DNA from: Acidithiobacillus sulfuriphilus
GTDB lineage: Bacteria; Pseudomonadota; Gammaproteobacteria; Acidithiobacillales; Acidithiobacillaceae
Length of the DNA: 64,000 bases
Assembly: GCF_003721225.1 (NCBI RefSeq)
Contig: NZ_RIZI01000193.1
Span: 1 to 64,000 of the forward strand
Reading direction: 5' to 3'
Position 1 is the stretch's first letter. Each line of letters begins with the position of its first letter. Below are positions 7,513 through 47,277 of the stretch, piece after piece. The notes below the pieces were generated by a model. It saw only the letters and a list, made by a program, of their open reading frames with translations. It was not told the origin of the DNA and did not search any database. The position numbers were made by a program, and so were the translations under genes.

Positions 7513-7528
7513 AGCAATAATCAGGCCA
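7513..7528 (-). promoter_or_regulatory. Sigma-54 promoter for SBP-desaturase unit
   Basis: Minus-strand TGGCCTGATTATTGCT: GG and GC are separated by exactly 10 bases, with TGGC and TTGCT elements, close to the RpoN consensus. The predicted start of transcription is near 7501, giving a short leader to the ATG at 7473. Confidence 0.75.
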
Positions 7529-7589
7529 TGTCGCATACAAATCTAACTTATTGATAGATTGTGATATTGTTTCGGTCGGATCTGTAGTA

Positions 7590-7639
7590 CGCACTATTAT
7601 AGGGCAATCATCGGCCATGTAGAGCACCACAATAGGGCT
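7590..7639 (-). promoter_or_regulatory. Two degenerate NtrC-type boxes
   Basis: Plus-strand CGCACTATTATAGGGCA (7590-7606) and AGCACCACAATAGGGCT (7623-7639) each match TGCACC-N5-GGTGCA imperfectly, better in the left half. They lie 62-111 bp upstream of the sigma-54 element, the normal enhancer distance. These are the weakest of the boxes in the window. Confidence 0.45.
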
Positions 7640-8149
7640 AGGAACATTCAGTGACTGATTCCATGGTGATTCAACCACCATGAGGGTCTCGGGATGTTGG
7701 AAGCTATGCCGCAGCGATCTTCGTCATCCGCTCCCACGTCACGTCATGCCGTCTTTCTGACTATGCCGCCGAAGCGTGTGCTGCCACTCATACACACCGG
7801 TAGCACGCCCCCCCTTGCCAAACCCCCTCGAATGGCTTGAGGCGATAGTGGTTATCGCCCATGTCCATACCTGCCATTACGCAACGTAGCGACACTGCTA
7901 CCGGTTGGGGGTGGCGGTCAGATGAATGGTAAAGGGCCGCAGCGCACCCCTTAGCCCATCGATGCGCAAGTGGAATCGGTAACCGCGGACCATTGCTTGC
8001 CAGCCGCCCCCACTCCCGGGACTACAAACCGTAACAGGCTTGAGAGAGTGCTCGGCCCAAGTATTGTAGCCAGTAACAGCACAGGACAGCCGCAGCAATC
8101 AGACCTATCCACCCTGTCCAAACCCTTTCATTGCCACCGCTGAACGGAT
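7640..8149. other. Intergenic stretch without a supported gene
   Basis: About 500 bp between the binding-protein control region and the DsbD-like gene. Short open frames occur on both strands but none has a start context or recognisable product. Around 7720-7790 minus-strand frames end in short peptide-like tails broken by stops and frame changes, which may be old transposase debris, but no family could be assigned. Confidence 0.4.
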
Positions 8150-8845
8150 CTAGAATATCCAGAACACATGGGTCAAGTTCAGAACGCCGAGACCGATCAC
8201 CACCACTCCCGCAGCCGCTCTTAGGCATGGGTGCTGGAGGGATGCAGCCAAGCCGCCCCCCACCAGCCCCATAAGGGCGAGGTTCGGCAGAGTGCCAAGA
8301 CCGAAAGCCATCATCAGGGCCGCGCCGCGGTCAGCGCCACCGGCGGCCATGGCCCAGATGAGAACACTGTAGACCAACCCGCAGGGCATCCACCCCCAAA
8401 GGGTTCCCAAAGCTATGGCCTGGGGAAAGGAATGCACCGGTATGAAGCGGCGCCCCAAAGGCGCGAGTCGCTTCCAGAAACCTTCCCCGAGCCGTTCCAC
8501 CACCGCCAGCCCCCGCCACCAACCGGCCAGATAAAGGCCTAAGACCAGCATGAAAAGGGCAGCCAGCACCGCCAGGGCGAGTTGGGCGTAGCGGACATTC
8601 ACCAGGTTGGCGGCGAAACTACCCACCCCTCCGGCTAGTGCCCCGGCGAAGCTGTAGCTGCCGATCCGGCCTAGGTTGTAGCCGAGCACCAAGGACCAAG
8701 CCGTAGACGGCCTGCGGCGGACCGGGCTCTGGCTGAGGCTAAAGGCTCCGACCAGACCACCACACATACCGACGCAGTGGACTCCACCCAGCAGTCCCAC
8801 CAGGAAGGCTGCAGAAAGACTCGGTCCGGTTATGCTCAGGTTCAC
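8150..8845 (-). CDS. DsbD-transmembrane-like / TauE-SafE-type membrane protein
   Basis: 231 residues with about six hydrophobic segments. The first one contains GGVHCVGMCGG, the Cys-containing signature of the DsbD_2 (urease accessory UreH-like/CcdA-like) family often annotated sulfite exporter TauE/SafE. In many proteobacteria this protein is encoded beside cbb3-oxidase copper-delivery genes, and here the preceding gene encodes a FixI-type metal-binding domain. The expected role is thiol or copper handling during metalloprotein maturation. A helping role for the nearby copper amine oxidase is attractive but only inferred from position. Confidence 0.8.
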   Translation of the reverse strand: MNLSITGPSLSAAFLVGLLGGVHCVGMCGGLVGAFSLSQSPVRRRPSTAWSLVLGYNLGRIGSYSFAGALAGGVGSFAANLVNVRYAQLALAVLAALFMLVLGLYLAGWWRGLAVVERLGEGFWKRLAPLGRRFIPVHSFPQAIALGTLWGWMPCGLVYSVLIWAMAAGGADRGAALMMAFGLGTLPNLALMGLVGGGLAASLQHPCLRAAAGVVVIGLGVLNLTHVFWIF

Positions 8846-8933
8846 TCTCTATCGCCCCTGCGGTAAGTCGCTTCAAAAGCCAACGATCCTGTTTGAGAAT
8901 CCCGCGAGATCACGCCCCACCGTACCGGCTCGG

Positions 8934-9152
8934 CTAATCTCGCGCCTTGCCCGCGTTGCCGAGCGGTTGCCCCCGTTCCGTCAATAACTGAATCAAGTAA
9001 TACGTACTTGCACATCCCAAACAGCAGAATCTGTTCTCCACACCGCCAATGCTACGGATAACCGGCCGCTTTCCCAGGGGCAACCGGCAGACCCCACAAT
9101 GAGCGGTGGCCGTGCCCATGGAGGAGTCCACCGCACCGCCGCTGCTGTCCAC
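8934..9152 (-). CDS. Small FixI/CcoI-type metal-binding domain protein, possibly a truncated copper ATPase
   Basis: 72 residues from a GTG directly after the amine oxidase stop, or 61 from an internal ATG (MGTATAHCGVC). It has HCGVCRLPL and FCCLGCAS, the cysteine pattern of the putative metal-binding domain that begins FixI/CcoI copper P-type ATPases. The ATPase body (membrane segments, DKTG) is absent, so this is either a stand-alone metallo-domain or a deletion remnant. It sits between a copper enzyme and a DsbD-like membrane protein, which fits copper handling. The start is uncertain because neither candidate has a good ribosome site. Confidence 0.55.
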   Translation of the reverse strand: MDSSGGAVDSSMGTATAHCGVCRLPLGKRPVIRSIGGVENRFCCLGCASTYYLIQLLTERGQPLGNAGKARD

Positions 9153-11111
9153 TCACTGCACCTCGCAACTCGCCCTCAGTTCGGGCGGCGGCGTATCCAT
9201 CGCAGGGTTGGCGTCGAAGAATCCGACCGGCCTCAGGATGAAGCCTATGTAGGCCACAGGCATAACCGGCCAGTCCTCCGGTCGTGGTATATGGTGATGG
9301 CCGCATGTGTACCAGACCACGACATCGCTGTTCTCCAGCGGCCTATCCTTAGCCACGTAGGCAGGGAGCCCATCGCCACCCGGGTGCTGATTGATATAAT
9401 CGCCAGAAGCGTACATTTCGGACGGGTCATAGGCCGTCACCCACAGGTGGCTACGCATGAACCCGGCGCGCTTCATCACGCTGGAATCCGGGCTAGCAAA
9501 CGGGAGTACGTTCTCACCATGCACGATTTTATAGCCGACCGGCTGTCCCACATTGTTGCGCACATTGGGATTGATCACCTTCCAGTAACGCCCCGCCAGG
9601 GGATTGATTACCCGCTGTGCCTCGGCCTCGCTACGCAACAGTGTCGTCTGAGGATAGCAGCCATTGCCGAGCGGATTGTGCGGTCCCTGGGTTTCGGGCA
9701 CAGTATCCACCTCGTAAACCGAGTTGCCTTCGCCGTCGATCATGAAATGCAGACGGAAGTTGAAGAAATGCTGGTGAATCGGCGCGTAGAGCTGTGGCGA
9801 CACCATAACACCGTATTTCGGCTGGACATCCGGCGGCAGCGCACCGACCGACAGACACCCCGTCAACTTGACTTCAAGCTGGATATCTCCGCTCTGATAG
9901 AAGTACCAGAAAAACCCGTAATCGTAGTTACCAACAGTGGCGAAGGATGACACCACGAGGCGCCTCGAACGCCTTACCTCGGTGTGATTGGTACGCCAAT
10001 CGGTATGCTTCCACAACGTGCCATGGTCTTCCTCGTGCATGCACACTGCCTTGGGGATGACCACCACGCCACCCCGACTGTCCGTCATGATCCCATCAAA
10101 ATACTTGATGTTACCGAGACAGTCACAGCCCAGTTCTAAGCTGTTCACGAGCCGGCCAATGCCGTATTCGCCCACGTCAAAGGCGTTCTTCTTGCTGTGA
10201 ATGGGCCCAGGGTCACCGTATGGGACCACCATCTCCGAGAGCGACGCGCGGTACAGGATCGGGCGCTCACGACCCCGGTCCGCGTAACCGATGCAATACA
10301 GCACCAGGCCCTCGCGTGGCGTGAAACCAATTCTGAACTTCCATTTCTGCCAGCTAACGGCATACCCGTCGACCGAAAAGCTTGGCCCGTCCAACTGCAC
10401 GATATCCAGAGGCTTCAAGTCATCGCGGATAGACCCCACCGCCGTCGCCGTATAATTTCCGGAGGGCGGCGGGAGGGGGACGACACCATTGTCCTCCACC
10501 TTCAGCACCGTCATGGTGTTGAGGTCCACGATGGCCACCACGCCATCCACCGGTCGTCCGTATCCCACGTCATCGTGACTGGTACGCATCCATGTGTAGC
10601 CCCTGGCAAGGCGATGGCCCGGGAACTGCTCGTCTCCGAAATTGCCAGCCGACCAAGGATCCACAATCGCATTCTCAAAGTCCGTGATGCCACGCTTGCG
10701 CAATGCCGCTTGCCATTCCGGGTTGGCTTTGACCGTATTTTCGCACTCGACGAATTCATCGACATGAATCGGTGGCTGAACTCCCGACATGTGGGACCAG
10801 GACTTGACGCACCGCTCCGTCAGGGACACCACCGCCTCGTAGGTCTGACCGTCCCCATTGTCGAGCAGGATAAAATGGGCCTCTCTCGCCTGGGGCTGGC
10901 CGGATTCGTAAGCGATCACCTCCGCTTTGGTCGGTTCCCGGAGGGCGGCGGACATAAAACGGACCCTGCCGGAAAGCTGCCGTCCATCTCGCAGTATCTG
11001 CACCGCTTCCCGCATCTCCTCAACGCTCAGCGGATCGAGAGGATGCACACCGCCCATTTCGTCATTGACGAACGCCATATTGTCATCCGCATTTTTAACT
11101 GAAATATTCAT
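9153..11111 (-). CDS. Primary-amine oxidase, copper/topaquinone
   Basis: Oxidises primary amines with O2 to aldehyde, ammonia and H2O2. The topaquinone precursor Tyr lies in VGNYDYGFFWYF (Tyr396 counting from the ATG at 11111; codon 9926-9924). Copper ligands include the two His of HQHFFNF and a later His in GFMRSHLWVTAYD. The length of 652 residues and the absence of a signal peptide match the cytosolic Arthrobacter-type branch rather than periplasmic TynA. The start at 11111 has GGAG 9 nt upstream; a longer frame to 11198 lacks support. A sigma-54/NtrC control region lies about 680 bp upstream, so nitrogen scavenging from amines is likely. Confidence 0.94.
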   Translation of the reverse strand: MNISVKNADDNMAFVNDEMGGVHPLDPLSVEEMREAVQILRDGRQLSGRVRFMSAALREPTKAEVIAYESGQPQAREAHFILLDNGDGQTYEAVVSLTERCVKSWSHMSGVQPPIHVDEFVECENTVKANPEWQAALRKRGITDFENAIVDPWSAGNFGDEQFPGHRLARGYTWMRTSHDDVGYGRPVDGVVAIVDLNTMTVLKVEDNGVVPLPPPSGNYTATAVGSIRDDLKPLDIVQLDGPSFSVDGYAVSWQKWKFRIGFTPREGLVLYCIGYADRGRERPILYRASLSEMVVPYGDPGPIHSKKNAFDVGEYGIGRLVNSLELGCDCLGNIKYFDGIMTDSRGGVVVIPKAVCMHEEDHGTLWKHTDWRTNHTEVRRSRRLVVSSFATVGNYDYGFFWYFYQSGDIQLEVKLTGCLSVGALPPDVQPKYGVMVSPQLYAPIHQHFFNFRLHFMIDGEGNSVYEVDTVPETQGPHNPLGNGCYPQTTLLRSEAEAQRVINPLAGRYWKVINPNVRNNVGQPVGYKIVHGENVLPFASPDSSVMKRAGFMRSHLWVTAYDPSEMYASGDYINQHPGGDGLPAYVAKDRPLENSDVVVWYTCGHHHIPRPEDWPVMPVAYIGFILRPVGFFDANPAMDTPPPELRASCEVQ

Positions 11112-11553
11112 ATTCGCAAACTCCGTTTGCCACTTGCCAAGAGGATCTTTGCACGATTTTGCCATGCCGCAAACGCATAATTTCTTCGAGATACCCAAGA
11201 GCCTAATTTGCCCGTTAACACGGGATGGTAAGTAAGCAGTTTGCGCGGTAACGACTGATCTCTTCGTAATCGGTCAATTCCTGTGGTATGTCTTTGATTA
11301 TCCTGTGCATATGCTTGGCCCATCTGAGAGGTGGCCAGTTCATTCATTCTGATCAGATGATGGGTGGATGCTAAACAGGATACGGTTACCACGCGGCAAT
11401 CGCACAAACTGATATTTTTTGCGTACTCTTGCAGGATTCTAGCCGTCGAGCGATTCGGTACTGATTCGGCGAGAGCTGCTAGCGCATCCTAAAATGAGGC
11501 AAAAATTGGATCCATAGAACAGCTCTTGTATGCAGAGGGCCGGCACCCATTTC
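11112..11553. other. Amine oxidase upstream region, no supported gene
   Basis: No convincing gene. A weaker GG-N10-GC match (minus-strand GGGCCAAGCATATGCA, 11306-11321) occurs about 195 bp before the oxidase start and could be a second promoter. Otherwise nothing recognisable. Confidence 0.3.
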
Positions 11554-11682
11554 TCAGCAGCGGCAGTGATATGCTGCAAACGTCTTGCCAGTATTTTGCG
11601 CATGATCTTTCCTCGGGGTGCATGTGCTCAGCCCCATCGGACTATGGAACCGGATTAACGTGCTGCGAAACAATTTGGTCAT
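11554..11682 (-). CDS. Possible 42-residue peptide in the amine oxidase leader
   Basis: ATG at 11682 with AAGGAA about 6 nt upstream. It encodes a Cys- and basic-rich peptide beginning MTKLFRST and ending AAYHCRC. It is the first reading frame after the predicted sigma-54 start near 11780 and ends about 440 bp before the amine oxidase. No family is recognised, and a chance frame is quite possible. Confidence 0.25.
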   Translation of the reverse strand: MTKLFRSTLIRFHSPMGLSTCTPRKDHAQNTGKTFAAYHCRC

Positions 11683-11948: not shown

Positions 11949-11965
11949 CGCACCAATTAGGTGCG
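11949..11965 (-). promoter_or_regulatory. NtrC box, perfect palindrome
   Basis: CGCACC-AATTA-GGTGCG is a perfect 6-5-6 inverted repeat, almost the NtrC consensus TGCACC-N5-GGTGCA, 143 bp upstream of the sigma-54 element. A further TGCGCAC half-site occurs at 11993. Confidence 0.7.
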
Positions 11966-12255: not shown

Positions 12256-13773
12256 TTACACCGCGCCGACACCGGCATGGAGATCTATCCAAATGGTTTT
12301 AAGGTCCGTGTACTTGTCCAGGGCATGAAGCGATTTGTCGCGCCCGAAACCGGATTGTTTGAAACCCCCGAAAGGAACAGTGGCATCACCTTCCTCGAAG
12401 CAGTTCACCCAAACCGTGCCGGCCCGTAGTTGCCTGGACAGACGATGGGCCCGGCCAACATCTCTGGTCCAAACGGCGGCGGCCAGCCCGTACAAACTGT
12501 CATTGGCTATGGCAACCGCTTCTTTCTCCGTCTGGAAGTCCAGAACCGCTAGCACAGGACCGAATATCTCTTCCTGGGCGATGGTCATGCGGGAATCCAC
12601 CTGGTCGAAAATGGTGGGGGCAAGGTAGTAACCTCCCGTTTCCGAGCGGACACGCTCCCCACCCAAACGCAGGCGCGCGCCTTCGGCCTTGCCCTGGTCG
12701 ATGTAGCCTAGCACACGCCTCAATTGTTCGTCGCTGACGATGGCCCCCATGCGTGTGGCGGGGTCCAAAGGATCGCCGGGCTGGAGATGTCGGCCTTCCT
12801 GAATCACCCGAACGACGAAATCTTCGCGTATTTCGCCCTCCACCAATAGACGGGATCCGGCGCTACACATCTCCCCCTGATTAAAGAAAATAGCGAGAGC
12901 AGCGGCGCGGGCGGCGCCGTCGAGATCGGGACAATCGGCGAAGACGATATTCGGGGTCTTGCCTCCGCATTCCAGCCAGACGCGCTTCATATTGGACTGG
13001 CCAGAATACTGTAGAAAGAGCTTTCCGACCTCTGTGGACCCTGTGAAAGCCAGACAGTCCACATCGGGGTGAAGCCCTAGAGCGCGGCCCGCAGTGGGTC
13101 CGAAACCGGGCAGGACATTTAGTACGCCAGGAGGAATATCCGCCTCGAGAGCGAGTTCCCCCAGACGCAAGGCCGTAAGGGGGGACTGCTCCGCTGGCTT
13201 GAGGACCACGCTATTCCCCGCGGCAAGAGCTGGCGCCACCTTCCATGCGGCCATTTCCAAGGGAAAATTCCAGGGAACCACTGCGGCTACTACACCTAGA
13301 GCCTCCCGGGTGATAAGACCAAGGGCATTTGGGCCGGTAGGAGCCACTTCATCGTAGATCTTGTCCACCGCTTCGCCATACCAGGCGAAGGTGCGTATGG
13401 CCGCTGGGAGGTCAATGCCATAACTATCCCGAATGGGCTTACCGACATCTAGTGTCTCCATGAGGGCTAGGTTCTCATGATCGCGCTCGAGCAAATCGGC
13501 CAGCCGGATCAGGCGGCGCCCCCGCTCTCGGGGGGGAAGCGAGGCCCAATGACCCTCCTCGAACGCCCGGCGGGACGCGGCGACGGCCAAATCCACATCC
13601 ACCGCGTCGGCCTCCGCGACCTCCGTAAGGAGCGCGCCGGTAGCGGGATTGTAGGTGCCGAAACGCCGTCCAGAAATGGCCTCCTGCCATTTTCCGTCAA
13701 TCAGAAGCCGCCGCGGAAAAACGAGTTTTCTGGACAAGTCTTGCCAATGTTCCTTACTTGGTAATTCGCTCAT
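12256..13773 (-). CDS. puuC: Aldehyde dehydrogenase, gamma-glutamyl-gamma-aminobutyraldehyde type
   Basis: 505 residues, NAD(P)-dependent ALDH. The coenzyme loop FTGSTEVGKLFLQYSG, the general base Glu in WLECGGKTPN and the nucleophile Cys in FFNQGEMCSAGSR are all present. In the Puu pathway this enzyme oxidises gamma-glutamyl-aminobutyraldehyde to gamma-glutamyl-GABA. The neighbours (PuuR-like regulator, PuuB, PuuA, PuuD) favour that role, though 3-aminopropanal and the aldehyde product of the nearby amine oxidase are also candidate substrates. GGAGG precedes the ATG by 6 nt. It is last gene of the aminotransferase-ald-puuR-puuC run. Confidence 0.9.
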   Translation of the reverse strand: MSELPSKEHWQDLSRKLVFPRRLLIDGKWQEAISGRRFGTYNPATGALLTEVAEADAVDVDLAVAASRRAFEEGHWASLPPRERGRRLIRLADLLERDHENLALMETLDVGKPIRDSYGIDLPAAIRTFAWYGEAVDKIYDEVAPTGPNALGLITREALGVVAAVVPWNFPLEMAAWKVAPALAAGNSVVLKPAEQSPLTALRLGELALEADIPPGVLNVLPGFGPTAGRALGLHPDVDCLAFTGSTEVGKLFLQYSGQSNMKRVWLECGGKTPNIVFADCPDLDGAARAAALAIFFNQGEMCSAGSRLLVEGEIREDFVVRVIQEGRHLQPGDPLDPATRMGAIVSDEQLRRVLGYIDQGKAEGARLRLGGERVRSETGGYYLAPTIFDQVDSRMTIAQEEIFGPVLAVLDFQTEKEAVAIANDSLYGLAAAVWTRDVGRAHRLSRQLRAGTVWVNCFEEGDATVPFGGFKQSGFGRDKSLHALDKYTDLKTIWIDLHAGVGAV

Positions 13774-13825
13774 GGTATTCCTCCGGGCGTACTGTATTCC
13801 CTACTAGTAATCCAAATCGCCAAAC

Positions 13826-14446
13826 TCAGAAACTCGGTGGCGAATTGGCGCTGATAATTTCGCAGATGTCATCGCCCGCATTGCGGAAACGATGGGGCAA
13901 CTGGCTCTCGAAGTAATAGGCGTCACCGGGACCCAGTTCTTGCTCCTGATGGCCGACGGTGAGCAGGATGCGACCGCGAACCACCACCCCCCCCTCCTCG
14001 CCGTTGTGGCGGAGCATGGCCTCGCCCGTATCGGCGCCCGGCTGGTAAACCTCTCGCAGGATCTGCATGGCGCGGCCGTTGGCTTTGCGGCCCACCAGTC
14101 GCAGGCTGATCTCGGGTCCGATGGCGATCTCCGGCAACTCCGCCGCGCGAAAAAACACCTGCTGGGTGGGCGTGAGGTCCAGGGTGAAGAAGTCGGCGAT
14201 GGACATGGGAATGCCGTCCAATAGCTTTTTCAGGGAACTGATGGACGGGCTCACCCGGTTCTGTTCGATGAGCGAGATGGCGCCATTGGTGACACCGGCA
14301 CGACGCGCCAGTTCCCGCTGTGTCAGGCCGTAGATTTGCCGAACCAGGCGTAGGCGACTACCAACCCCGTCGATAGTGCTTGCCGCAACGGGCTCCTGCA
14401 TGCTTTCGACCTGCTGCGCCATCTCCTTTTCCTCGTTGGGCACCAT
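13826..14446 (-). CDS. puuR: PuuR-like transcriptional regulator (XRE HTH plus cupin)
   Basis: 206 residues from the ATG at 14446 (GGGAGG upstream), which follows the alanine dehydrogenase stop by 4 bp. The N-terminal helix-turn-helix (LRLVRQIYGLTQRELARRAGVTNGAISLIEQN) is followed by a C-terminal cupin (EEGGVVVRGRILLTVG, PHRFRNAGDD). This architecture is that of PuuR, the putrescine-responsive repressor of the puu genes. A likely operator is the pair of palindromes at 22478-22508. A longer frame into ald is an artefact of the upstream overlap. Confidence 0.88.
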   Translation of the reverse strand: MVPNEEKEMAQQVESMQEPVAASTIDGVGSRLRLVRQIYGLTQRELARRAGVTNGAISLIEQNRVSPSISSLKKLLDGIPMSIADFFTLDLTPTQQVFFRAAELPEIAIGPEISLRLVGRKANGRAMQILREVYQPGADTGEAMLRHNGEEGGVVVRGRILLTVGHQEQELGPGDAYYFESQLPHRFRNAGDDICEIISANSPPSF

Positions 14447-14450
14447 TCTC

Positions 14451-15572
14451 TCAACCTCCCTGCAAAAGCCGCTCCACAGCCAAGGGTATTTCCCCCATAG
14501 CCTCCGCCACCGCCGGGTGAACAATATGCCCATCCGCAATATTGAGGCCATTTCGCAAATGGGGATCGTCGCGCAACGCCTGCTGCCAGTCCAGATCGGC
14601 TAGGCGTAGCACATACGGAAGCGTGGCGTTGGTCAGGGCGAAGGTGGAAGTGCGCGGCACGGCGCCGGGCATGTTGGCCACGCAATAATGGACGATACCA
14701 TCCACCAAGTAGGTGGGTTCCGTGTGCGTGGTGGAATAGCTGGTCTCGAAACAGCCGCCCTGGTCGATGGCGACATCCACCAGCACACTACCCGGCCGCA
14801 TATGCCCCAGCATGGGTCTGGTCACCAGTTTCGGGGCAGTGGCGCCGGGAATCAGGACCGCGCCAATCACCAGATCGGCAGCATAAACCGCCTCCTCCAC
14901 CGCTTCCGCTGTGGCGTAGAGGGTCCTCAGGTGGGGACCGTAGTGGGCATCGATTTCCGCCAGACGGGGCAGGGATTTGTCCAGCAGGACTACTTCCGCC
15001 CCCAGGCCCATGGCCATCCGCGCGGCATTGGCGCCCACCACGCCACCACCGATAACCACCACCTTGCCGGGGGATACGCCAGGGACACCAGCGAGGAGTA
15101 CGCCCGCTCCGCCGGAGGCTTTTTCCAGACCATGGGCGCCCACCTGGATGGCCATACGTCCAGCCACCTCGCTCATGGGGGCGAGCAGGGGCAAGCGCCC
15201 CTGGGAATCGGTGACGGTTTCATAGGCGATCGCCACTGCACCGGAAGCCTTGAGCAACTGGGTCTGCTCTGGGTCTGGCGCGAGATGGAGATAGGTAAAG
15301 AGGATTTGACCTGGCCGTAGCCGTTGGCACTCCTGCGGCTGGGGCTCCTTGACCTTCACGATCATTTCGGCACGGGCGAAGACTTCCTCGGCAGCCATGA
15401 CGATCTCCGCCCCGGCCCGCCCATAATCGTCGTCGCTCATGCCGATACCCGCGCCTGCCCGGCTTTCCACCAGGATGTGGTGTCCATGAGCCACTAATTC
15501 GCGAACGGCGGCGGGCGTCAGTCCGACGCGATACTCATGGTTCTTGATCTCTTTCGGAACTCCGATCCACAT
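14451..15572 (-). CDS. ald: Alanine dehydrogenase
   Basis: NAD-dependent L-alanine to pyruvate plus ammonia. 373 residues. The N-terminus MWIGVPKEIKNHEYRVGLTP with Arg15 and the Rossmann motif VVVIGGGVVGANAARMA are diagnostic, as is MSEVAGRMA. The ATG has GAGGTG upstream, 8 bp after the preceding aminotransferase. The pairing with a pyruvate-dependent aminotransferase makes sense: the aminotransferase converts pyruvate to alanine and Ald regenerates pyruvate while releasing ammonia, so the pair deaminates omega-amines. Confidence 0.95.
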   Translation of the reverse strand: MWIGVPKEIKNHEYRVGLTPAAVRELVAHGHHILVESRAGAGIGMSDDDYGRAGAEIVMAAEEVFARAEMIVKVKEPQPQECQRLRPGQILFTYLHLAPDPEQTQLLKASGAVAIAYETVTDSQGRLPLLAPMSEVAGRMAIQVGAHGLEKASGGAGVLLAGVPGVSPGKVVVIGGGVVGANAARMAMGLGAEVVLLDKSLPRLAEIDAHYGPHLRTLYATAEAVEEAVYAADLVIGAVLIPGATAPKLVTRPMLGHMRPGSVLVDVAIDQGGCFETSYSTTHTEPTYLVDGIVHYCVANMPGAVPRTSTFALTNATLPYVLRLADLDWQQALRDDPHLRNGLNIADGHIVHPAVAEAMGEIPLAVERLLQGG

Positions 15573-15580
15573 GGGTCACC

Positions 15581-16891
15581 TCATGCCAAATGGCGCAACA
15601 CATCGCGCAGGGTTTGAATTATCCTATCCAGATGGGTCCCCTCGACAATGAGGGGAGGAGAAAGGGCAATGGTGTCACCGGCGGCCCGAACCAACAATCC
15701 GCGTTGCAGGGCCTGCACCTGCGCGTCATAGCCACGGGCACCGACGGCATTGGGACGGGGTTCCAGCTCGATGGCCGCCATAAGCCCCAGGTTACGGATA
15801 TCGCGCACGAGGGGTAGTCCACGCAGACTGTGCACGGCATCTTCAAAAAGAGGGGCGACATGCGCGCCCCGCGTGAGCAAGCTTTCCCGCTCATAGATGT
15901 CCAGGGTTGCCATGCCGGCAGCGCAGGCCAGCGGATGGCCGGAATAGGTATAGCCGTGGAAGAGTTCGATACGTTCTTCCGGCCCCTTCATGAAGGCTTG
16001 GAAAATCTGGTCGCCGACGAATACCGCCCCCATGGGCACTGCGCCGTTGGTCAGGCCCTTGGCGGTCGTCAGCATGTCCGGAATGACGCCAAAGTAATCG
16101 GCGGCGAAAGGAGTTCCCAGGCGCCCGAATCCGGTGATGACCTCGTCGAAAATGAGCAAAAGGCCATGCCGATCGCAGATGTTCCGCAAGCGCTGCAAAT
16201 AACCCACCGGGGGAACGATGACCCCCGCGGAGCCGGCAACGGGCTCGATGATGACGGCGGCGATGCGCTCGGCACCAAGGGTGGCGATCAGGGCTTCCAG
16301 GGCATCGGCGCGCTCGGCGCCGAAGGCCGGAAGGCCGCGGGCAAAGGAATTGCGCTCCTGGTCGAGGGTATGCGGCAAGTGTTCCGCTTCCAGCAGGGGA
16401 CCGAACGCCTCCCGATTATTCGGCAGGCCACCCACCGACAGGCCGCCAAACCCGACCCCGTGATAGGCCCGCTCCCGACCAATAAAAATGGTGTGCTGCG
16501 CTTCGCCGCGCACGAAATGATAGGCCCGGGCGATCTTGAGAGCCGTGTCCACGGCTTCTGAACCGGAGTTGGTGAAAAACACCCGCTTGAGGGGCGCGGG
16601 AAGCATCCTTACCAAGCGTTCCGCATAGGCGAAGGCGAGCGGATGCCCCATTTGGAAGGTTGGCGCGAAATCCAGCCGTCGGGTCTGTTCGGCGATGGCG
16701 GTCGTGATCTCCGTCCGGCCATGCCCGGCATTCACGCACCAGAGGCCAGCGGTGGCGTCCAGAATTTCACGACCATCGTCGCCCCAGTAGTACATGCCCT
16801 CCGCCCGGCTCAAGAGACGCGGCGCCGCCTGGAACTGGCGGTTCGCGGTGAAGGGCATCCAAAAGGCTGCCAGCGCATCATTCTGCGGCAT
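15581..16891 (-). CDS. Class III (omega) aminotransferase, amine/beta-alanine:pyruvate type
   Basis: 436 residues from the ATG at 16891 with GGAG 8 nt upstream. This is a PLP fold-type I class III enzyme: the lysine lies in LTTAKGLTNGAVPMGAVF, the PLP Asp in LLIFDEVITGFGR, and the early motif GLWCVNAGHGR is typical of the omega-amino acid:pyruvate group. It probably transfers the amino group of putrescine, other diamines or beta-alanine to pyruvate. It heads the run with ald, puuR and puuC, which gives a complete amine to aldehyde to acid route with ammonia release. The exact amine cannot be read from sequence. Confidence 0.9.
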   Translation of the reverse strand: MPQNDALAAFWMPFTANRQFQAAPRLLSRAEGMYYWGDDGREILDATAGLWCVNAGHGRTEITTAIAEQTRRLDFAPTFQMGHPLAFAYAERLVRMLPAPLKRVFFTNSGSEAVDTALKIARAYHFVRGEAQHTIFIGRERAYHGVGFGGLSVGGLPNNREAFGPLLEAEHLPHTLDQERNSFARGLPAFGAERADALEALIATLGAERIAAVIIEPVAGSAGVIVPPVGYLQRLRNICDRHGLLLIFDEVITGFGRLGTPFAADYFGVIPDMLTTAKGLTNGAVPMGAVFVGDQIFQAFMKGPEERIELFHGYTYSGHPLACAAGMATLDIYERESLLTRGAHVAPLFEDAVHSLRGLPLVRDIRNLGLMAAIELEPRPNAVGARGYDAQVQALQRGLLVRAAGDTIALSPPLIVEGTHLDRIIQTLRDVLRHLA

Positions 16892-16909
16892 GCTTTTCTC
16901 TCCAGACAA

Positions 16910-17039
16910 TCCATCTTATGTTTAATATACTAATCATTTCCATCCGGGTCAACGGCCGGTTCATTTGACGTACAACCTACTAACAACGTATCCATATAGG
17001 ACAGAAAATATATAAACTTTAAGCAGGAACCGGTCTCTC
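16910..17039 (-). promoter_or_regulatory. Control region between puuB and the aminotransferase-ald-puuR-puuC run
   Basis: AT-rich 130 bp after the puuB stop, with TAATCATT and TTAATATAC segments near 16921-16938 that resemble half of the palindromic operator at 22478. No GG-N10-GC element was found. A vegetative promoter under PuuR control is plausible but not proved. Confidence 0.35.
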
Positions 17040-18302: not shown

Positions 18303-18322
18303 AGCGCGGATCTCCCGCAAGC

Positions 18323-19657: not shown

Positions 19658-19677
19658 ATCGTCCTTTCTCGCCATAT

Positions 19678-21072
<1,395 letters not shown>

Positions 21073-21110
21073 AACTGCACTCCTTTTCCAGCATGGGCAC
21101 GAAGCGCCCA

Positions 21111-22454: not shown

Positions 22455-22477
22455 CGTTTCACACCTTAGGTGAATAT

Positions 22478-22508
22478 TATAATGATCATTATATAGAAAT
22501 TTCTATAT
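22478..22508 (-). promoter_or_regulatory. Pair of overlapping palindromes, probable PuuR operator
   Basis: TATAATGATCATTATA (22478-22493) and ATATAGAAATTTCTATAT (22491-22508) are both perfect palindromes, overlapping by 3 bp, in the 94-bp AT-rich gap before puuA copy 2. Their AT-rich character with an ATAATGA core is reminiscent of the PuuR box of E. coli. They also overlap plausible -10/-35 sequences. Confidence 0.6.
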
Positions 22509-22548
22509 TAATCCAAGAAGTATTATATATAATGTTTATTTTTTTAAT

Positions 22549-23268: not shown

Positions 23269-23292
23269 CTCTTAATCACGCCACCGTGGCGA

Positions 23293-24036: not shown

Positions 24037-24114
24037 GATCTTCATGCTCCTTCTTTGGGCGCTTCGAAGCGTCCTTTATGAAAGGGGGCCGTGCGGCCCC
24101 AGGACAAGCCATAA

Positions 24115-25188: not shown

Positions 25189-25243
25189 TGCTCGACTTCC
25201 TCCATTATCGATGGACAATATTAGGACACTTCGAAAAATGTCC

Positions 25244-27009: not shown

Positions 27010-27012
27010 GCC

Positions 27013-31973: not shown

Positions 31974-31988
31974 ACAAATAACCCGGCA

Positions 31989-39577: not shown

Positions 39578-39594
39578 TGCACTTAGATGGTGCA
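39578..39594 (-). promoter_or_regulatory. NtrC box
   Basis: TGCACT-TAGAT-GGTGCA matches the consensus in 11 of 12 arm positions, 92 bp upstream of the sigma-54 element. An extra half-site TGGTGCA lies at 39558-39564. Confidence 0.72.
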
Positions 39595-41128: not shown

Positions 41129-41197
41129 CGTTTATCCGATAATGAATATTATACGGAAATGTTTGGTTTTCCTATAATATTCATTATCGGATAAACG
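41129..41197. repeat. 25-bp perfect inverted repeat with 19-bp loop
   Basis: Arms 41129-41153 and 41173-41197 are exact reverse complements, and part of the loop edges also pairs. The AT-rich arms contain ATAATGAATATTATA. It lies between IS5 and IS1595 remnants. It could be a miniature element, facing IS ends or a DNA-structure/regulatory site; no T-run follows. Confidence 0.75.
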
Positions 41198-41214
41198 ATC
41201 ATTTAATATGCCTC

Positions 41215-41757: not shown

Positions 41758-41854
41758 ACAATGAGTTAAAGCATGGATGCTGAGAACGGTTCAGAGGCAT
41801 GTTATTTAAAGTATAAGCGATTCCTGCGCATTTTCCATCTAGTGAGGGCTTCCC

Positions 41855-42261: not shown

Positions 42262-43695
42262 CTACTTCTTCCCGATTATGAGCTTAGCATGCTCCTCCAG
42301 ATCCTGCTCAATCAGTTTAACCATCTGAGGTGATTTACTTTTTGCATAAATAAACCACCCAATACCAACAATAATATATGCTAAATATAAATACGGTATT
42401 ACATTGTATGGAAAAGGAGGAACCGGATACACACTGCCGGTAAAGGCGGCGACCATAAATAACGCTCCTAAAACTCCGGTAAGGACAACACCAAAGGTGA
42501 GCTTTCTATTCTTAACAAGATAAACTGGCGCGCCTACGCTGACCAGAAAATAGGCCGTCATAAATCCGAACGACGCGAATGTTCCTGTTAGATCAAAAGC
42601 GTTCATCGCGTTTCCATCAAAAGAGAACCACAACACAACAGCCAAAACAAATATTGACATTACCAAAAGAGCCACGTGCGGTGTTCCGTATTTTTTATGG
42701 ACCAGCCCCATAGATCTATGGACGATTTGAAACCTGGCCATAGAATAAAAAATACGAGAGGCTGCATTTATTGATGCCATAGTGCATGCAAAAGCGCTGA
42801 TAGCCGCAATAAAATACATAACTGGCCCAATGTAAGGCACACCCAACTCATTTGTAATATACATTAATGGCGTATTACTGGCACCAAAAATAGTAGAATT
42901 TCCCTTAAATGCTATCATCATTACATACGCAACAAACAATCCAAATATACCAGATACTACCTCTGTAGCTATTACAACCTTATGCACGGTACTCAAAGGT
43001 TTTTTTGCTTCGCCACTTAATGTTGCACCGCTATCAAATGCAGCCAGAGAGAATATGGCGATGAAAACACCCTCAGCCATACCTTTGAAAGATGTCCCAC
43101 GGAGTGATAACTGGTCCATATCAATAATCTTGTAAGTTCCGCTGACCAGAATCGCACACAAAAGAACGAAAACAATGGTGATTGTAGTAAATTCTATAAT
43201 TATACTCACCTTTGATGAAACACTGATATCCCTATACGTTAAATAAACAATTAATACTATACTTAACAAATAGATTAAGCTAGATGATACACCAAATCCA
43301 AAATACTGTGTGGCAGCATCGATAAACATGTACTCACCTGCAAGAACGGCAATTGCTGTGCTGATATATGCCGCGGCAAGCCCCCATCCGGCAATAACCC
43401 CAGCAGCAGAACCTAACCCCTTTGAAATATATAGGAATAATGATCCTGTGCCAGATATACGTTTAGCGAATATACCGATATTCATGGCCACCAGCGTAAG
43501 ACCAAGAGAAGCAAGGCCAAAAACTAACCATGTACCATTCCCAGCCAACGCAACTACTGCAGCCACGTTAAGTGCCGGCATGAATGTAGGGGAAAGATTT
43601 GCTAGGGATTGCCCGAATAATTCCCAAAATCCAAGATTAGCATTTTTTAATTCCATACCTTTATTCGTGCTCGCTGCATCCACTTGAATCGACAT
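42262..43695 (-). CDS. APC-family permease, copy 2, linked to methylated-amine genes
   Basis: 477 residues from the ATG at 43695 (GGGGG upstream). About 12 hydrophobic segments; GFWELFGQSLANLSPTFMPALNVAAVVALAG parallels copy 1. It is the last gene after the haem monooxygenase, across a 284-bp gap with no sigma-54 element, so it is probably read from the cupin promoter. A role in uptake of dimethylamine, methylamine or a related amine is inferred from context. Confidence 0.88.
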   Translation of the reverse strand: MSIQVDAASTNKGMELKNANLGFWELFGQSLANLSPTFMPALNVAAVVALAGNGTWLVFGLASLGLTLVAMNIGIFAKRISGTGSLFLYISKGLGSAAGVIAGWGLAAAYISTAIAVLAGEYMFIDAATQYFGFGVSSSLIYLLSIVLIVYLTYRDISVSSKVSIIIEFTTITIVFVLLCAILVSGTYKIIDMDQLSLRGTSFKGMAEGVFIAIFSLAAFDSGATLSGEAKKPLSTVHKVVIATEVVSGIFGLFVAYVMMIAFKGNSTIFGASNTPLMYITNELGVPYIGPVMYFIAAISAFACTMASINAASRIFYSMARFQIVHRSMGLVHKKYGTPHVALLVMSIFVLAVVLWFSFDGNAMNAFDLTGTFASFGFMTAYFLVSVGAPVYLVKNRKLTFGVVLTGVLGALFMVAAFTGSVYPVPPFPYNVIPYLYLAYIIVGIGWFIYAKSKSPQMVKLIEQDLEEHAKLIIGKK

Positions 43696-43979
43696 AATAT
43701 GACCCCCAAAGTAAAGTACCGCCACAGATTAAACCTAAGATACTTCTATTCAATCCCACATTGTAACTAATGACGCATCAAGACCCATTCAAGTTACTAT
43801 ATCTCTTTGCTTTTTATTATTTTCCTTATGCTGCCGATAACGGTAAATATTACGAAGCAACAATCTTTCATTAGAGTAACCTATATCACATATGCGCCCA
43901 ATCAACTGAACTGACCATCAGAAGCTCTCCCAACGGATTTACCACTACGATCCAGAATAAACCAATCCTGATTATTGGG

Positions 43980-44987
43980 CTATTGGTTGAGACGTCTCTC
44001 AGACCATACAATAATATCATTACGATATTTTGCGAATCCTTTATACTCAGAGATCTTGTCATTTAACGAGCGCATAATTGAATAAAAATTTGATAACCAC
44101 TCATGATTGCTAGCTAAATCATTCAAACTGAGCAGGTAAGTCCTTGTTGTTAACATCAAAGAATTACTTCTTGGTAAACGTGTGAATGTCTGCAACTCGA
44201 CGCGAAGGAACACAATTTCACCGGCATTGTCACATGTAACAAATGATCTATTTATTCCCCATTGATGATATTGTTCCGTAGATGTGTCAAGCATTGGAAA
44301 TATTGTAAGGGTCCAATTTAGGCGTTGCAGAGGCTCCTCTATGCGAAGATTTAAAAGAACACTCAATACGCGATCGTAAACACCCATCTCATGGGCTAGC
44401 GGCACTGGACCATGAATTTCGTGAAAAGACATACCAAAATCAAACTGTGCAGAAAAATCAGCTGCAAAAGTTATCATTCCAGCATCTAAATATAAGTTAT
44501 TATCACGTTGGTCAAGAATAAAGAAATCACCTTGACATTGCCTTGTAATATATTCTAACGGCCCCATAGTGAGTGTAGCACAATCACCGAATTTAAACTT
44601 ATTTGAAATATTTAGAAGGTTATTTCTCCAAATCCACTCTGGGCCACACGTTTCAAGGCTAAAATATCCAGGATAATCACGAGATAAATTAATCATGATA
44701 TATTCGAGAGCATCCCATTGTGCAGTTTCCATATGAGATAAAGCACCATATCTTGAACGATCCTGTTCCAGAATACGCCTGCGCTCGTAGACTTCTGATA
44801 TATAATGCTCATCAACATCTATAAGATGCTCATATGGGGAACCAATCGGGCCTTTTATGTAGGGTTTGACATCCACGTAATACATATATTCGTTACTCTT
44901 AAATGGAAACGGAAAGCGCGCAATCGCTTCATCGCTATTCTTGAATGTAAATGGACATGCATAGCTTTCCAGTTTCATCTTTATCAT
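43980..44987 (-). CDS. Haem-dependent oxidative N-demethylase (DUF3445), dimethylamine monooxygenase haem subunit
   Basis: 335 residues. It matches the DUF3445/HODM family: the opening NSDEAIARFPFPFKSNEYMYYVD, the middle LETCGPEWIWRNNLL, then SFHEIHGPVPLAHEMGVYDRV and PLQRLNWTLTIFP followed by LRVELQTFTRLPRSNSLMLTTRTYLLSL are typical. Known members oxidise dimethylamine to methylamine plus formaldehyde with O2 and a reductase. Here it follows a PDR-type reductase and the small zinc-ribbon subunit, matching the three polypeptides described for secondary-amine monooxygenase. GGAG lies 8 nt before the ATG. Symbols vary (dmm genes), so none is assigned. Markedly AT-rich. Confidence 0.9.
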   Translation of the reverse strand: MIKMKLESYACPFTFKNSDEAIARFPFPFKSNEYMYYVDVKPYIKGPIGSPYEHLIDVDEHYISEVYERRRILEQDRSRYGALSHMETAQWDALEYIMINLSRDYPGYFSLETCGPEWIWRNNLLNISNKFKFGDCATLTMGPLEYITRQCQGDFFILDQRDNNLYLDAGMITFAADFSAQFDFGMSFHEIHGPVPLAHEMGVYDRVLSVLLNLRIEEPLQRLNWTLTIFPMLDTSTEQYHQWGINRSFVTCDNAGEIVFLRVELQTFTRLPRSNSLMLTTRTYLLSLNDLASNHEWLSNFYSIMRSLNDKISEYKGFAKYRNDIIVWSERRLNQ

Positions 44988-45018
44988 GTTTTATGCTCCA
45001 CTATATCCGCAGTAATAA

Positions 45019-45960
45019 TCATAAATCCAAGATAATCTTATCGTGCCCACGCGAAACACATGGCAAGATAAGATTTCCTTCTTTTTTTTCATCATCACTC
45101 AAGTAACAATCTCGGTGCTCGATATCTCCAGATATTACTCTTGTAGCACATAGTCCACATGCTCCAGATCTACACCCATATGGAATGTCCACGCCTAGAT
45201 TCTCTAATGCTTCTAAAAGAGTAAGGTCTTTAGGCACATTTCCAGACATATTCGAGTTTTTTAATTCAAAGATGAAAGGATTTCCACTTTGCCCAGAATC
45301 AAATAATTCATAGTGCAGATGAGATCTAGGCCAATTTAAATATTCTGCGACGCTTATGACGTTCTCGATAAGCGATTTAGGACCGCAAACATAAGCATGA
45401 GCACCAACTGGTTGGTCTTTCAATATATCTTCTACCCTCACTCGCTTTCCATCGTTCGAGCAATAATAATAATATTTTTTTACAATATCTATCAATTGGT
45501 TATGAAATACAGTCTTATTCATGCACTTAAACGCATAATGCATCTCAAAATCAAGTTGATAACGCATTAAATATTTTATATATGTTACAAATGGGGTAAC
45601 ACCGATTCCTCCAGCGATTAATATATGTTTTCGTGCTAATTTATTGATAGGAAAATTATTCCTGGGGTATGTGATCTCTAAAACAGATCCTGTCTGAATT
45701 AGATTGTGCATAAATGATGATCCACCATGCGAATCATCTCTTCTAAGTACTGCTATTTCATAAGCCTCGGTATCCCACGGGTCATTAATTAATGAGTAGG
45801 CGTTATAATGGGTATATCCATATAAATTTAGCTTTACAAGAATATTACTACCAGGAGAAAATCCAGGTAAAGCAGCCAGATCTTGGGCAATAAACCTAAA
45901 TATCTTAACATTATCAACTGGTTGTTTAATTCCTGCAACACAAACAGTTATCGTTTTCAT
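45019..45960 (-). CDS. PDR/VanB-type flavin-ferredoxin reductase of the dimethylamine monooxygenase
   Basis: 313 residues. Ferredoxin-NADP-reductase module first: KLNLYGYTHYNAYSLIND (FMN-binding RxYSL-like), then GGIGVTPFVTYIKYLM for NAD. The C-terminal plant-type [2Fe-2S] domain has YGCRSGACGLCATRVISGD and a final Cys in LILPCVSRG. This order (reductase then ferredoxin at the C-terminus) is that of the phthalate dioxygenase reductase group, as in the 36-kDa subunit of secondary-amine monooxygenase. It passes electrons from NAD(P)H to the haem subunit encoded 31 bp downstream. AGGAG precedes the ATG. Confidence 0.9.
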   Translation of the reverse strand: MKTITVCVAGIKQPVDNVKIFRFIAQDLAALPGFSPGSNILVKLNLYGYTHYNAYSLINDPWDTEAYEIAVLRRDDSHGGSSFMHNLIQTGSVLEITYPRNNFPINKLARKHILIAGGIGVTPFVTYIKYLMRYQLDFEMHYAFKCMNKTVFHNQLIDIVKKYYYYCSNDGKRVRVEDILKDQPVGAHAYVCGPKSLIENVISVAEYLNWPRSHLHYELFDSGQSGNPFIFELKNSNMSGNVPKDLTLLEALENLGVDIPYGCRSGACGLCATRVISGDIEHRDCYLSDDEKKEGNLILPCVSRGHDKIILDL

Positions 45961-46004
45961 GCTTACTCCTGGATAATAATTAAGCTTTTATGCTCCTTGA
46001 TATC

Positions 46005-46550
46005 TTAGTCATCTACTCGCACCCCTAGATAAGCACCCATTCGTCGCGAAAAATGATTACGCACGAACAATGAGGTCCCGCACCTGTTGCATTGTATTAT
46101 GCTAGAATTATCGGCAATATTGATTGTACTGCAATGCGCGCAGTATACATTTCTTTTGGAACCACACTTATTTAAAATAATGTTGCCATCTGTAATTCCT
46201 ACTTTTTTTGCTAGTTTCACCATAGACCAAATAAATATCTCATCGCCAGAGAAATAAACCACCGTTCCCATGCTCGATTTATTTAGCGTATCCAGCATTG
46301 CATGGGTTATCCCGCACTGTGGTTTATGCGTAATTACCTGGAATCTTTCATCAGTACGTAGACCATCTAACACCATGATATCATCGCTATCTATTTCAAG
46401 ATGGACAATAAGCGATGTCAATGGCGGTAATTTTTTTGTAAACTCCATTAACGAAGTAATATTATTGCAATTGCTTGCTATTATATGCTGGTTAGCCGCT
46501 TCAGTCGGGACTAATTCGGTGTAAAGAGGTGTGCTACGCCTTAAAAACAT
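46005..46550 (-). CDS. dmmA: Small dimethylamine monooxygenase subunit, DmmA-like with C-terminal zinc ribbon
   Basis: 181 residues. It has a C-terminal four-Cys ribbon VYCAHCSTINIADNSSIIQCNRCGTSLFVR, and a preceding Rossmann-like part (GTVVYFSGDEIFIWSMVKLAKKVG) that resembles a ferredoxin-reductase NAD region. The size fits the roughly 20-24 kDa subunit of secondary-amine monooxygenase. It sits 44 bp before the reductase. The ribbon may bind zinc or iron. The symbol follows common usage for this small family but is my recollection, not a search result. Confidence 0.72.
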   Translation of the reverse strand: MFLRRSTPLYTELVPTEAANQHIIASNCNNITSLMEFTKKLPPLTSLIVHLEIDSDDIMVLDGLRTDERFQVITHKPQCGITHAMLDTLNKSSMGTVVYFSGDEIFIWSMVKLAKKVGITDGNIILNKCGSKRNVYCAHCSTINIADNSSIIQCNRCGTSLFVRNHFSRRMGAYLGVRVDD

Positions 46551-46636
46551 GTTGGCTCCTATTTACTATTCACTTGACCACCATAAGGCATCGCATTACT
46601 TTTCCAGGATACCATTAACTCTCACGAGCGATTCCG

Positions 46637-46688
46637 GGCTAGATCGGCAGGGATCAATGAGCCGAACACGATCTAGCCATTAGTTAAC
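46637..46688 (-). repeat. 10-bp inverted repeat between cupin and DmmA-like genes
   Basis: GGCTAGATCG and CGATCTAGCC, perfect, with a 32-base loop, in a 205-bp gap within the operon. It may act as an attenuator or processing site that lowers downstream expression, or be a factor-binding site. Confidence 0.5.
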
Positions 46689-46755
46689 AATCTTATAACC
46701 ACATACCTACGTCTTCTTACGAGACTTAGACATATGAACAATAATGCTCTATAAT

Positions 46756-47109
46756 TCACACAGAACTTATCATTTCTCGCAGGGCGCAATAAAATATTGT
46801 GGCACATGAGGCAGAAGAAAATGTTATTTCACTTCCACTTGAAAAATAAAAAATATCGCCTGGTATCCCTTTCCTAGATTGCCCACTTTCGTCAGTGACT
46901 ATTACTTCCCCTTCCACCACCAACTTCATTTCGTCAAAGCCATATTTATAAGTTAATGGGTCACCCTTCTCCATTCGAAAAAATCCGCATGTCAAAGGCG
47001 TTGACTTATCATTTGAGCCGAGAAAATCCTTCATGAAACCATTATCGTTCGGCAATCCCATCGATTGTAGAGTTGCCCGCTGAGCACCAGATATATACTC
47101 CATTGTCAT
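46756..47109 (-). CDS. Small cupin protein, EutQ-like
   Basis: 117 residues: one cupin barrel (GFFRMEKGDPLTYKYGFDEMKLVVEGEVIVTDESGQ and GIPGDIFYFSSGSEITF). Similar to the ethanolamine-utilisation EutQ cupin group; the usual metal-binding His residues are mostly absent, so catalysis is doubtful. It is the first gene after the sigma-54 promoter and heads the run leading to the dimethylamine monooxygenase. AGGAG lies 9 nt before the ATG. It could be an accessory factor or an amine sensor; function unproven. Confidence 0.8.
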   Translation of the reverse strand: MTMEYISGAQRATLQSMGLPNDNGFMKDFLGSNDKSTPLTCGFFRMEKGDPLTYKYGFDEMKLVVEGEVIVTDESGQSRKGIPGDIFYFSSGSEITFSSASCATIFYCALREMISSV

Positions 47110-47152
47110 TGCTACATTCTCCTATGTGTGAACTTATCGCCATGCAAGAACA

Positions 47153-47168
47153 TGCATGATGTATGCCA
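47153..47168 (-). promoter_or_regulatory. Sigma-54 promoter of the dimethylamine monooxygenase operon
   Basis: Minus-strand TGGCATACATCATGCA: GG-N10-GC with TGGCA and ATGCA blocks; the predicted leader to the cupin ATG is about 33 nt. Confidence 0.72.
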
Positions 47169-47231
47169 ACGTGCATGGAGCAGCAATACATTTATAAACA
47201 TACAGTTAAAAAAAGTTACCAATATGAAACA

Positions 47232-47277
47232 TGCTCCATCCTGGTGCGGATTGTGCTTGATGCACATAAATGGTGCG
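47232..47277 (-). promoter_or_regulatory. Two NtrC boxes
   Basis: TGCTCC-ATCCT-GGTGCG (47232-47248) and TGCACA-TAAAT-GGTGCG (47261-47277), with starts 29 bp apart, 64-109 bp upstream of the sigma-54 element. Confidence 0.72.

Follow-up and report, generated by a model that had tools for sequence, protein, structure and literature searches.

Paired sigma54 and NtrC sites before amine-utilization genes of Acidithiobacillus sulfuriphilus, and a predicted link to guanidine riboswitch operons

What would place a copper amine oxidase, polyamine genes, an outer-membrane porin, a predicted dimethylamine monooxygenase and an unnamed oxygenase module behind promoters of the same appearance? The question is raised by the first 64,000 nucleotides of contig NZ_RIZI01000193.1 of Acidithiobacillus sulfuriphilus (G000:C105:1-64000 in our genome set; G+C 0.54; hereafter the window, meaning this whole stretch), from a genome of 2.81 Mb in 194 contigs. 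Six minus-strand GG-N10-GC elements of the sigma54 (RpoN) type, here called P1 to P6, lie at 7513, 11791, 28194, 33212, 39471 and 47153, in that order. The original prediction joined them, with nearby boxes for the activator NtrC, into one nitrogen-starvation regulon over otherwise unrelated amine modules. From the sequence evidence below it is very probable that P2 to P6 are NtrC-activated sigma54 promoters of amine scavenging, and that P1, likewise a sigma54 promoter, stands before a module for guanidine-linked nitrogen acquisition. The single-regulon proposal stands where motif pairs (P2 to P6), RpoN, NtrC, like boxes elsewhere in the genome and conservation in relatives bear on it; it falls short at P1, which lacks an NtrC box, and at the monomethylamine genes, which lack a pair.

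All six 16-mers are present at these coordinates, each with 6–8 of 8 flanking consensus positions, as are the boxes placed at 11949, 28264, 28305, 33380, 39578, 47232 and 47261; those of P2 to P6 match 10 or 11 of 12 positions. The two weaker boxes proposed for P1, at 7590 and 7623, amount at most to half-sites, and no box with at most three mismatches starts between 5907 and 8432. Neither motif by itself stands out in the window; the pairing does. At up to three mismatches, sigma54-like sites alone are not enriched (91, against 109 expected from shuffles), and NtrC-like boxes alone number 46 against 35.5 expected, a count reached by 7 of 100 shuffles. Pairs were scanned by fixed consensus rules, independently of the sites picked by the original prediction: a GG-N10-GC core whose flanks match 6 or more of the 8 consensus positions, with a box matching at least 10 of 12 positions located 30–200 bp upstream. 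This unbiased scan returned five pairs, exactly P2 to P6, while 30 dinucleotide shuffles of the window gave a mean of 0.07 pairs and a maximum of 1. With the box loosened to 9/12 there were seven pairs, the two extra ones lying on the plus strand within minus-strand genes. Twenty stretches elsewhere in this genome (376,364 bp in total), drawn not at random but from contigs matching the NtrC model, held six pairs, or 1.0 per 64 kb, three of them in the stretch carrying ntrBC. Five pairs against 1.0 expected corresponds to a Poisson P of 0.004, or 0.0002 with the ntrBC stretch excluded. Genome-wide, 220 boxes with at most two mismatches were found against 58 for the reversed pattern, and 10 of the 220 fall in the window, roughly double what its length would predict. 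Two other sigma54-like sites in the window, at 11575–11590 and 58040–58055, have one mismatch to the consensus and no paired NtrC box.

The gene for RpoN is on contig C86. Among 32 matches to the NtrC model in the genome, a single one is over the cut-off (on contig C89; 744.6 against 558.6 bits). Its DNA-binding domain aligns to that of Salmonella NtrC (1ntc; E 8e-21) in a segment that includes HTQGHKQ.AA..LGWG..TLT.KLKELGM, and the mismatched positions of this stretch are presumably the engineered alanines of the 1ntc entry. The window itself encodes no NtrC-type activator, as had been stated, the sole match to the model being the receiver domain (60606–60989) of a Trans_reg_C protein. Boxes matching 11 or 12 of 12 positions lie before ntrB, amtB, prkA, glnA and a second porin gene of the BBP2 family, and a 7/8 sigma54 element also precedes each of these except glnA. 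Because boxes are found at textbook targets in the same genome, we consider the motif definition validated, glnA being the exception on the sigma54 side. Contig C89 (locus L089) also has, at 6777–6928, an 8/8 sigma54 element with two NtrC boxes (12/12 and 11/12); these sites precede a circularly permuted ATP-grasp gene, a possible further NtrC target, beside a DUF2126/transglutaminase gene.

Two genomes from other genera of the same family, G008 and G015, carry a rearranged version of the island. Pairs were found in G008 before the copper amine oxidase, the short-chain dehydrogenase/reductase (SDR)-hydrolase and the polyamine ATP-binding cassette (ABC) transporter genes, and in G015 before the porin, the kinase-lyase pair, the SDR-hydrolase and a further glutamine-synthetase-like gene. 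Promoter conservation before homologous genes extends to P2, P3, P4 and P5, and at P1 to the sigma54 site only.

Could the sites be explained otherwise? It is scarcely credible that they are chance motifs over-read by eye. Each motif alone is indeed at chance level in the window, but the excess of pairs over shuffles, the constant geometry before genes and the conservation all speak against chance, which in our view is already refuted for P2 to P5, while P6 leans on the pairing within the window. An unlikely reading is that the sigma54 elements are real and some of them, above all P1, are driven by another activator, for example NtrX. Fourteen NtrC-model matches in the genome span the ATPase region, box strength varies among the promoters and P1 has no box at all; however, the boxes of P2 to P6 share the palindrome of those at ntrB, amtB, glnA and prkA, and the NtrC of this genome retains the enteric DNA-binding domain. 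The modules might also be run chiefly by their own substrate regulators from other promoters, with the sigma54/NtrC sites being minor or relict. This would fit with the two helix-turn-helix (HTH)-cupin regulators encoded in the window (13826–14551 and 58712–59308), the unpaired monomethylamine genes and the distance of about 589 bp between P2 and its gene, but relics would not recur before rearranged homologous modules in other genera and before porins, and we judge this explanation very unlikely.

NtrC activation of P2 to P6 thus remains our preferred reading, and several observations weigh against it. The relatives are not independent samples, and even there the G008 porin (4216 of its stretch) has a sigma54 site without a good box, while the boxes of the G015 polyamine ABC genes reach only 9/12. 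Within 450 bp of the glnA boxes the scan rule gives no sigma54 site. Thirteen further NtrC-family proteins with an ATPase region are encoded in the genome and could act at some of the sites. The absence of a box at P1 was noted above. The stretch of about 589 bp after P2 is found in the window only, so the tie between P2 and the amine oxidase is uncertain here. The case for P6 comes mainly from the window: the demethylase behind it is encoded in 1 of 29 genomes of the family, and demethylase genes of class relatives have a sigma54 site in 2 of 7 cases, with boxes of 9/12.

P1 (7513..7528, minus strand; 7/8 flanking positions) lies some 40 bp upstream of the ATG at 7473. Behind it, on the same strand, are an NMT1/SsuA-like periplasmic binding protein (6472..7473; PF09084), a membrane oxygenase of the FA_desaturase family (5385..6395; PF00487), a lactonase-like hydrolase of the metallo-beta-lactamase fold that scores below all NCBIfam cut-offs (4454..5296), and orf249 (3744..4493), a conserved gene without a Pfam family. 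The desaturase is 94% identical to a protein from a proteobacterial metagenome-assembled genome (MAG) and 77% identical to that of Acidithiobacillus ferrianus. Homologues of the module were collected from 80 loci in named genomes, in which the order binding protein, oxygenase, hydrolase and orf249 is conserved; the modules are often near a carboxylase-allophanate hydrolase pair. In 76 usable upstream regions (L009, L065, L078 and L086 were left out), a sigma54 site was found in 67, a box of at least 9/12 in 55 and a pair in 48, while random windows gave 6.7% for sigma54 sites and 1.9% for pairs.

At most of these loci the sigma54 site is some 175–280 bp upstream of the gene, with a Guanidine-I riboswitch as the leader. 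Rfam identified the aptamer between the promoter and the binding-protein gene in 15/15 loci chosen as positives. Of 58 loci that have a recognised binding protein and over 300 bp of upstream sequence, 53 contain the core pattern of the riboswitch, always behind the sigma54 site. Four of the five core-negative loci (L064, L067, L068 and L077) have the sigma54 site 33–59 bp before the gene, as in the window (40 bp), and Rfam found Guanidine-I in 0/4 of them; the fifth, L076, has neither riboswitch nor sigma54 site. Among 14 usable oxygenase loci without such a binding protein, two had riboswitch and sigma54 site, seven the sigma54 site only and five neither. In the window, Rfam found no Guanidine-I aptamer in the P1 leader, and a permissive scan of 6300–9200 showed no remnant. 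In G008 the same element stands in front of a relict of the gene, likewise without a riboswitch. The original prediction listed the desaturase/lactonase genes among modules with no known nitrogen role; since the relatives' copy of the module is a Guanidine-I riboswitch operon, this assignment does not hold. By likeness to the methylguanidine-demethylating MgdH/MgdL system (PMC12508155), which also comes with Guanidine-I riboswitch operons, the module may carry out the hydroxylation and cleavage of a guanidino compound. The Stutzerimonas operon of this type adds two SDRs, an EamA transporter, a biuret-hydrolase-like enzyme and an ABC permease with its ATPase. For orf249, structure prediction (mean predicted local distance difference test score 90.5; 22 aligned homologues) gave a double-barrel fold like that of yeast YLR301w, the only significant structural match (3rby_A; E 3e-5, template-modelling score about 0.53).

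At its left end the window carries, on the plus strand, the C-terminal portion of a urea/guanidine-type biotin carboxylase (7..1971) and an allophanate hydrolase (1972..3768). The operon begins on contig C190, the carboxylase gene being split between C190 and the window and linked by 19 identical residues. There, a 12/12 NtrC box is followed by an 8/8 sigma54 element, a Guanidine-I riboswitch (83.1 bits), an NMT1-type binding protein, permease, ATPase, two DUF1989 proteins and the start of the carboxylase at the contig end; this is a Guanidine-I operon by its aptamer, NMT1-type transporter, DUF1989 pair and carboxylase. The C190 leader also contains a stable hairpin (-22.1 kcal/mol, z -2.8), into which the 3' part of the aptamer is drawn; a run rich in U comes after it, as would be expected of termination control. 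The same arrangement is found in A. ferrianus (L010) at divergent carboxylase and oxygenase operons. In a sister MAG (L009), a Guanidine-II riboswitch was seen inside the carboxylase operon (8230–8275, minus strand).

Starting from the P1 module could bias such a sample, and this bias is removed by a gene-blind search for Guanidine-I in 369 genomes of the class, of which 29 were positive; 30 of the 38 riboswitches listed were examined. A sigma54 site lies at most 200 bp upstream of the riboswitch in 27/30, together with an NtrC-like box (at least 9/12) in 22/30, against 4.6% and 3.3%, respectively, in random windows of the same loci. Within 150 bp the count was 26/30; the opposite strand gave 0/30, and five shifted positions gave 0 or 1 of 29–30 each. 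By contrast with the 27, 3/30 loci have no sigma54 site by the rule. With 27 of 30 so placed, the Guanidine-I riboswitch in this sample is nearly always the leader of a predicted sigma54 transcript. This regularity is broader than what the original prediction proposed, which holds in its main claim, is corrected at P1 and calls for caution at P2 and P6.

We propose, with moderate confidence in the whole, that in Gammaproteobacteria-type genomes guanidine assimilation is two-gated: NtrC and sigma54 would start transcription under nitrogen shortage only, and the Guanidine-I riboswitch would let the transcript continue only if guanidine is present. The P1 module, with its HRI1-like orf249, would be an uncharacterised guanidino-compound pathway controlled in this way, its copy in the window having been cut off from guanidine sensing, and BBP2 porins would be nitrogen-starvation entry channels. 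The open-access full-text literature, to which these searches were confined, yielded among the papers listed none joining a guanidine riboswitch with NtrC or sigma54; those in which the words guanidine, riboswitch and NtrC occur together are, by title, about c-di-GMP, papers naming such riboswitches and a desaturase concern the arginine desaturase NapI, and none was found that has the riboswitch together with an isochorismatase. As far as these searches show, the Guanidine-I tandem and the BBP2 porin as NtrC/sigma54 targets have not been described.

The porin part of this proposal comes from P4 (33212..33227, minus strand; 7/8), about 39 bp before the ATG at 33173 and preceded by NtrC boxes at 33380–33396 (11/12) and 33349–33365 (9/12). 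Its first gene is a BBP2 outer-membrane porin (31989..33173, minus strand; PF07642, E 2.4e-59). BBP2 genes were found in 26/29 genomes of the family and in 0/28 of the more distant genomes searched. For 29 usable upstream regions from the 30 loci among the matches (L135 was left out), a sigma54 site was found in 21 and a sigma54/NtrC pair in 19, while random windows of the same loci gave 13.5% and 5.5%. A BBP2 porin gene of Kuenenia, KSMBR1_3177, is highly upregulated in ammonium limitation according to the accessible text of PMC7438415; the family is the same, the organism is an anammox bacterium and the regulator is not named there. On the strength of the upstream pairs and the Kuenenia upregulation, the P4 barrel is likely a nitrogen-starvation porin, and its description as a barrel with no known nitrogen role could not be maintained, sigma54/NtrC sites being widespread before BBP2 genes in this family of bacteria. 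Partial BBP2 genes were also seen at contig ends, at G000:C150:5-307 (with its own sigma54/NtrC pair) and G000:C105:66875-67165.

Downstream of the porin on the minus strand are an APH-family kinase (30686–31699) and a class-III pyridoxal-phosphate (PLP) enzyme (29089–30408), which correspond to the two halves of PRK06148-type proteins. Ethanolamine-phosphate and phosphohydroxylysine lyases are the model for amino-alcohol phosphorylation and ammonia release, and by analogy we propose that the pair is an amino-alcohol kinase and a phospho-lyase that releases ammonia. The kinase-lyase pair of G015 has a sigma54/NtrC site of its own. Between the porin and kinase genes, a long inverted repeat (31940–31975, by eye) might separate or attenuate the P4 transcript.

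P2 (11791..11806, minus strand; NtrC box 11949..11965, 10/12) has a sigma54 element of 8/8 that is conserved in G008. The gene attributed to it is a copper amine oxidase for primary amines (9153..11198, minus strand; PF01179, E 1e-161; NF008559 over cut-off). About 589 bp (11087..11675, minus strand), absent in G008, intervene between P2, with the ATG downstream of it, and the body of the oxidase, which makes the promoter-to-gene tie less certain in the window than in G008. The difference may be an insertion in the window or a deletion in G008; a repeated element was ruled out by its single copy in the genome, and there are no clear terminal repeats. Over 8015–11086, a segment that holds a DsbD-like gene together with the amine oxidase, DNA identity to G008 is 95%, far above the 50–80% of the neighbouring proteins, and this suggests a transfer between the two lineages, which was likely recent.

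P3 (28194..28209, minus strand; 6/8), with two boxes (28264–28280 and 28305–28321), lies 42 bp before the ATG at 28152 and has a counterpart in G008 and a weaker one in G015. The minus-strand genes behind it (12256..28152) encode a polyamine-type ABC transporter and gamma-glutamylation enzymes, with two glutamine-synthetase-like ligases, two aminotransferases, a flavin-dependent (FAD) oxidase, a C26 peptidase, an SDR, an alanine dehydrogenase, an HTH-cupin regulator and a PuuC-like aldehyde dehydrogenase. P5 (39471..39486, minus strand; 7/8; box 39578..39594, 11/12), whose counterparts precede the SDR-hydrolase genes in G008 and G015, is followed on the minus strand by an amino-acid permease (37970–39475, as an open reading frame), an SDR (37151–37921) and an isochorismatase-type cysteine hydrolase (36422–37138). 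A PP2C phosphatase-protein kinase fusion (34254..35969, minus strand), which is near the SDR-hydrolase genes in G008 too, possibly ends a co-transcribed P5 unit. We rejected the idea that the pseudomonad guanidine operon has its missing half in this SDR and hydrolase, the likeness being at the family level (only 31% identity).

P6 (47153..47168, minus strand; 7/8) is about 44 bp before the ATG at 47109, with boxes at 47232–47248 and 47261–47277 (10/12 each). Its minus-strand genes (42262..47109) encode an EutQ-like cupin, subunits like those of dimethylamine monooxygenase, including a haem-dependent N-demethylase alpha subunit, and an amino-acid permease. As the set of demethylase alpha, DmmA-like and reductase families is present (PF11927, PF22289, PF22290 and Fer2), a dimethylamine monooxygenase activity is predicted. 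Further on, 47292–58566 carries monomethylamine/N-methylglutamate genes (FolD, N-methylglutamate synthase-like, GMAS-like, N-methylglutamate dehydrogenase-like and PurU). No sigma54/box pair was found before PurU, SoxB, FolD, GMAS or the permease at 42262, nor did the window scan give one, and for this reason we do not claim the monomethylamine pathway for the regulon. Apparent insertion-sequence remnants were seen by eye at 40092–42060, where the open reading frames tested have no Pfam match; the 64-kb window has no tRNA or Rfam match at gathering scores.

In the enteric Ntr regulon, NtrC activates sigma54 promoters such as glnAp2, glnK-amtB and yeaGH. The two elements, their order and their spacing are the same here, and homologues of amtB, glnA, ntrB and prkA have boxes, whereas the island's targets are BBP2 porins and genes for amines, polyamines, dimethylamine and guanidine. 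Many NtrC regulons have been described, and for this class a prediction from RpoN and NtrC site matrices exists (PMC12194929), whose main text does not name porin, amine, urea, glnA, amtB or guanidine. The Guanidine-I operons of PMC12508155, PMC12186494 and PMC11410670 share with those described here the riboswitch, NMT1-type transporter, DUF1989 proteins (there carboxyguanidine deiminases), carboxylase, allophanate hydrolase and an oxygenase gene added to the operon. In contrast, the oxygenase here is of the membrane FA_desaturase type, accompanied by the metallo-beta-lactamase-fold hydrolase and orf249, and the accessible text of those reports does not mention a sigma54/NtrC promoter before the riboswitch. 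Compared with dmmABC and the gamma-glutamylmethylamide pathway (PMC5520151), the demethylase and DmmA-like Pfam families are the same, while here an EutQ-like cupin leads the unit with an NtrC/sigma54 pair before it.

The following sequence of events can be envisaged. On ammonium shortage, NtrB would phosphorylate NtrC, encoded on another contig, which would bind one or two boxes about 55–160 bp upstream of P2 to P6 and drive open-complex formation by RpoN polymerase at GG-N10-GC. Primary amines would then be stripped of their nitrogen by the copper amine oxidase; polyamines would be processed by ABC uptake, gamma-glutamylation, transamination and alanine dehydrogenase, an amino alcohol by the putative kinase and phospho-lyase, and dimethylamine by the monooxygenase. 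The P5 substrate is predicted to be an amide or amino alcohol, and the BBP2 porin could provide entry through the outer membrane. P1 would be a sigma54 promoter whose module, with the carboxylase and allophanate hydrolase at the left end of the window, takes part in guanidine-linked acquisition of nitrogen. In guanidine operons the riboswitch, located in most relatives between promoter and gene, would decide on completion of the transcript after an NtrC/RpoN start; having lost it, P1 of the window would answer only to the first gate, NtrC/RpoN, supposing that it responds to NtrC. In this scheme binding, the response to ammonium, the starts of transcripts and the substrates are predictions, built on the motifs, their enrichment, the genes, their conservation and the riboswitch linkage.

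If this picture is correct, an acid-living, probably autotrophic lineage draws nitrogen from amines under the control of a single global switch. Nitrogen starvation would then be the physiological context for guanidine riboswitches, a widespread unnamed oxygenase operon would gain its first functional frame, and a large porin family annotated only as putative would have a role.

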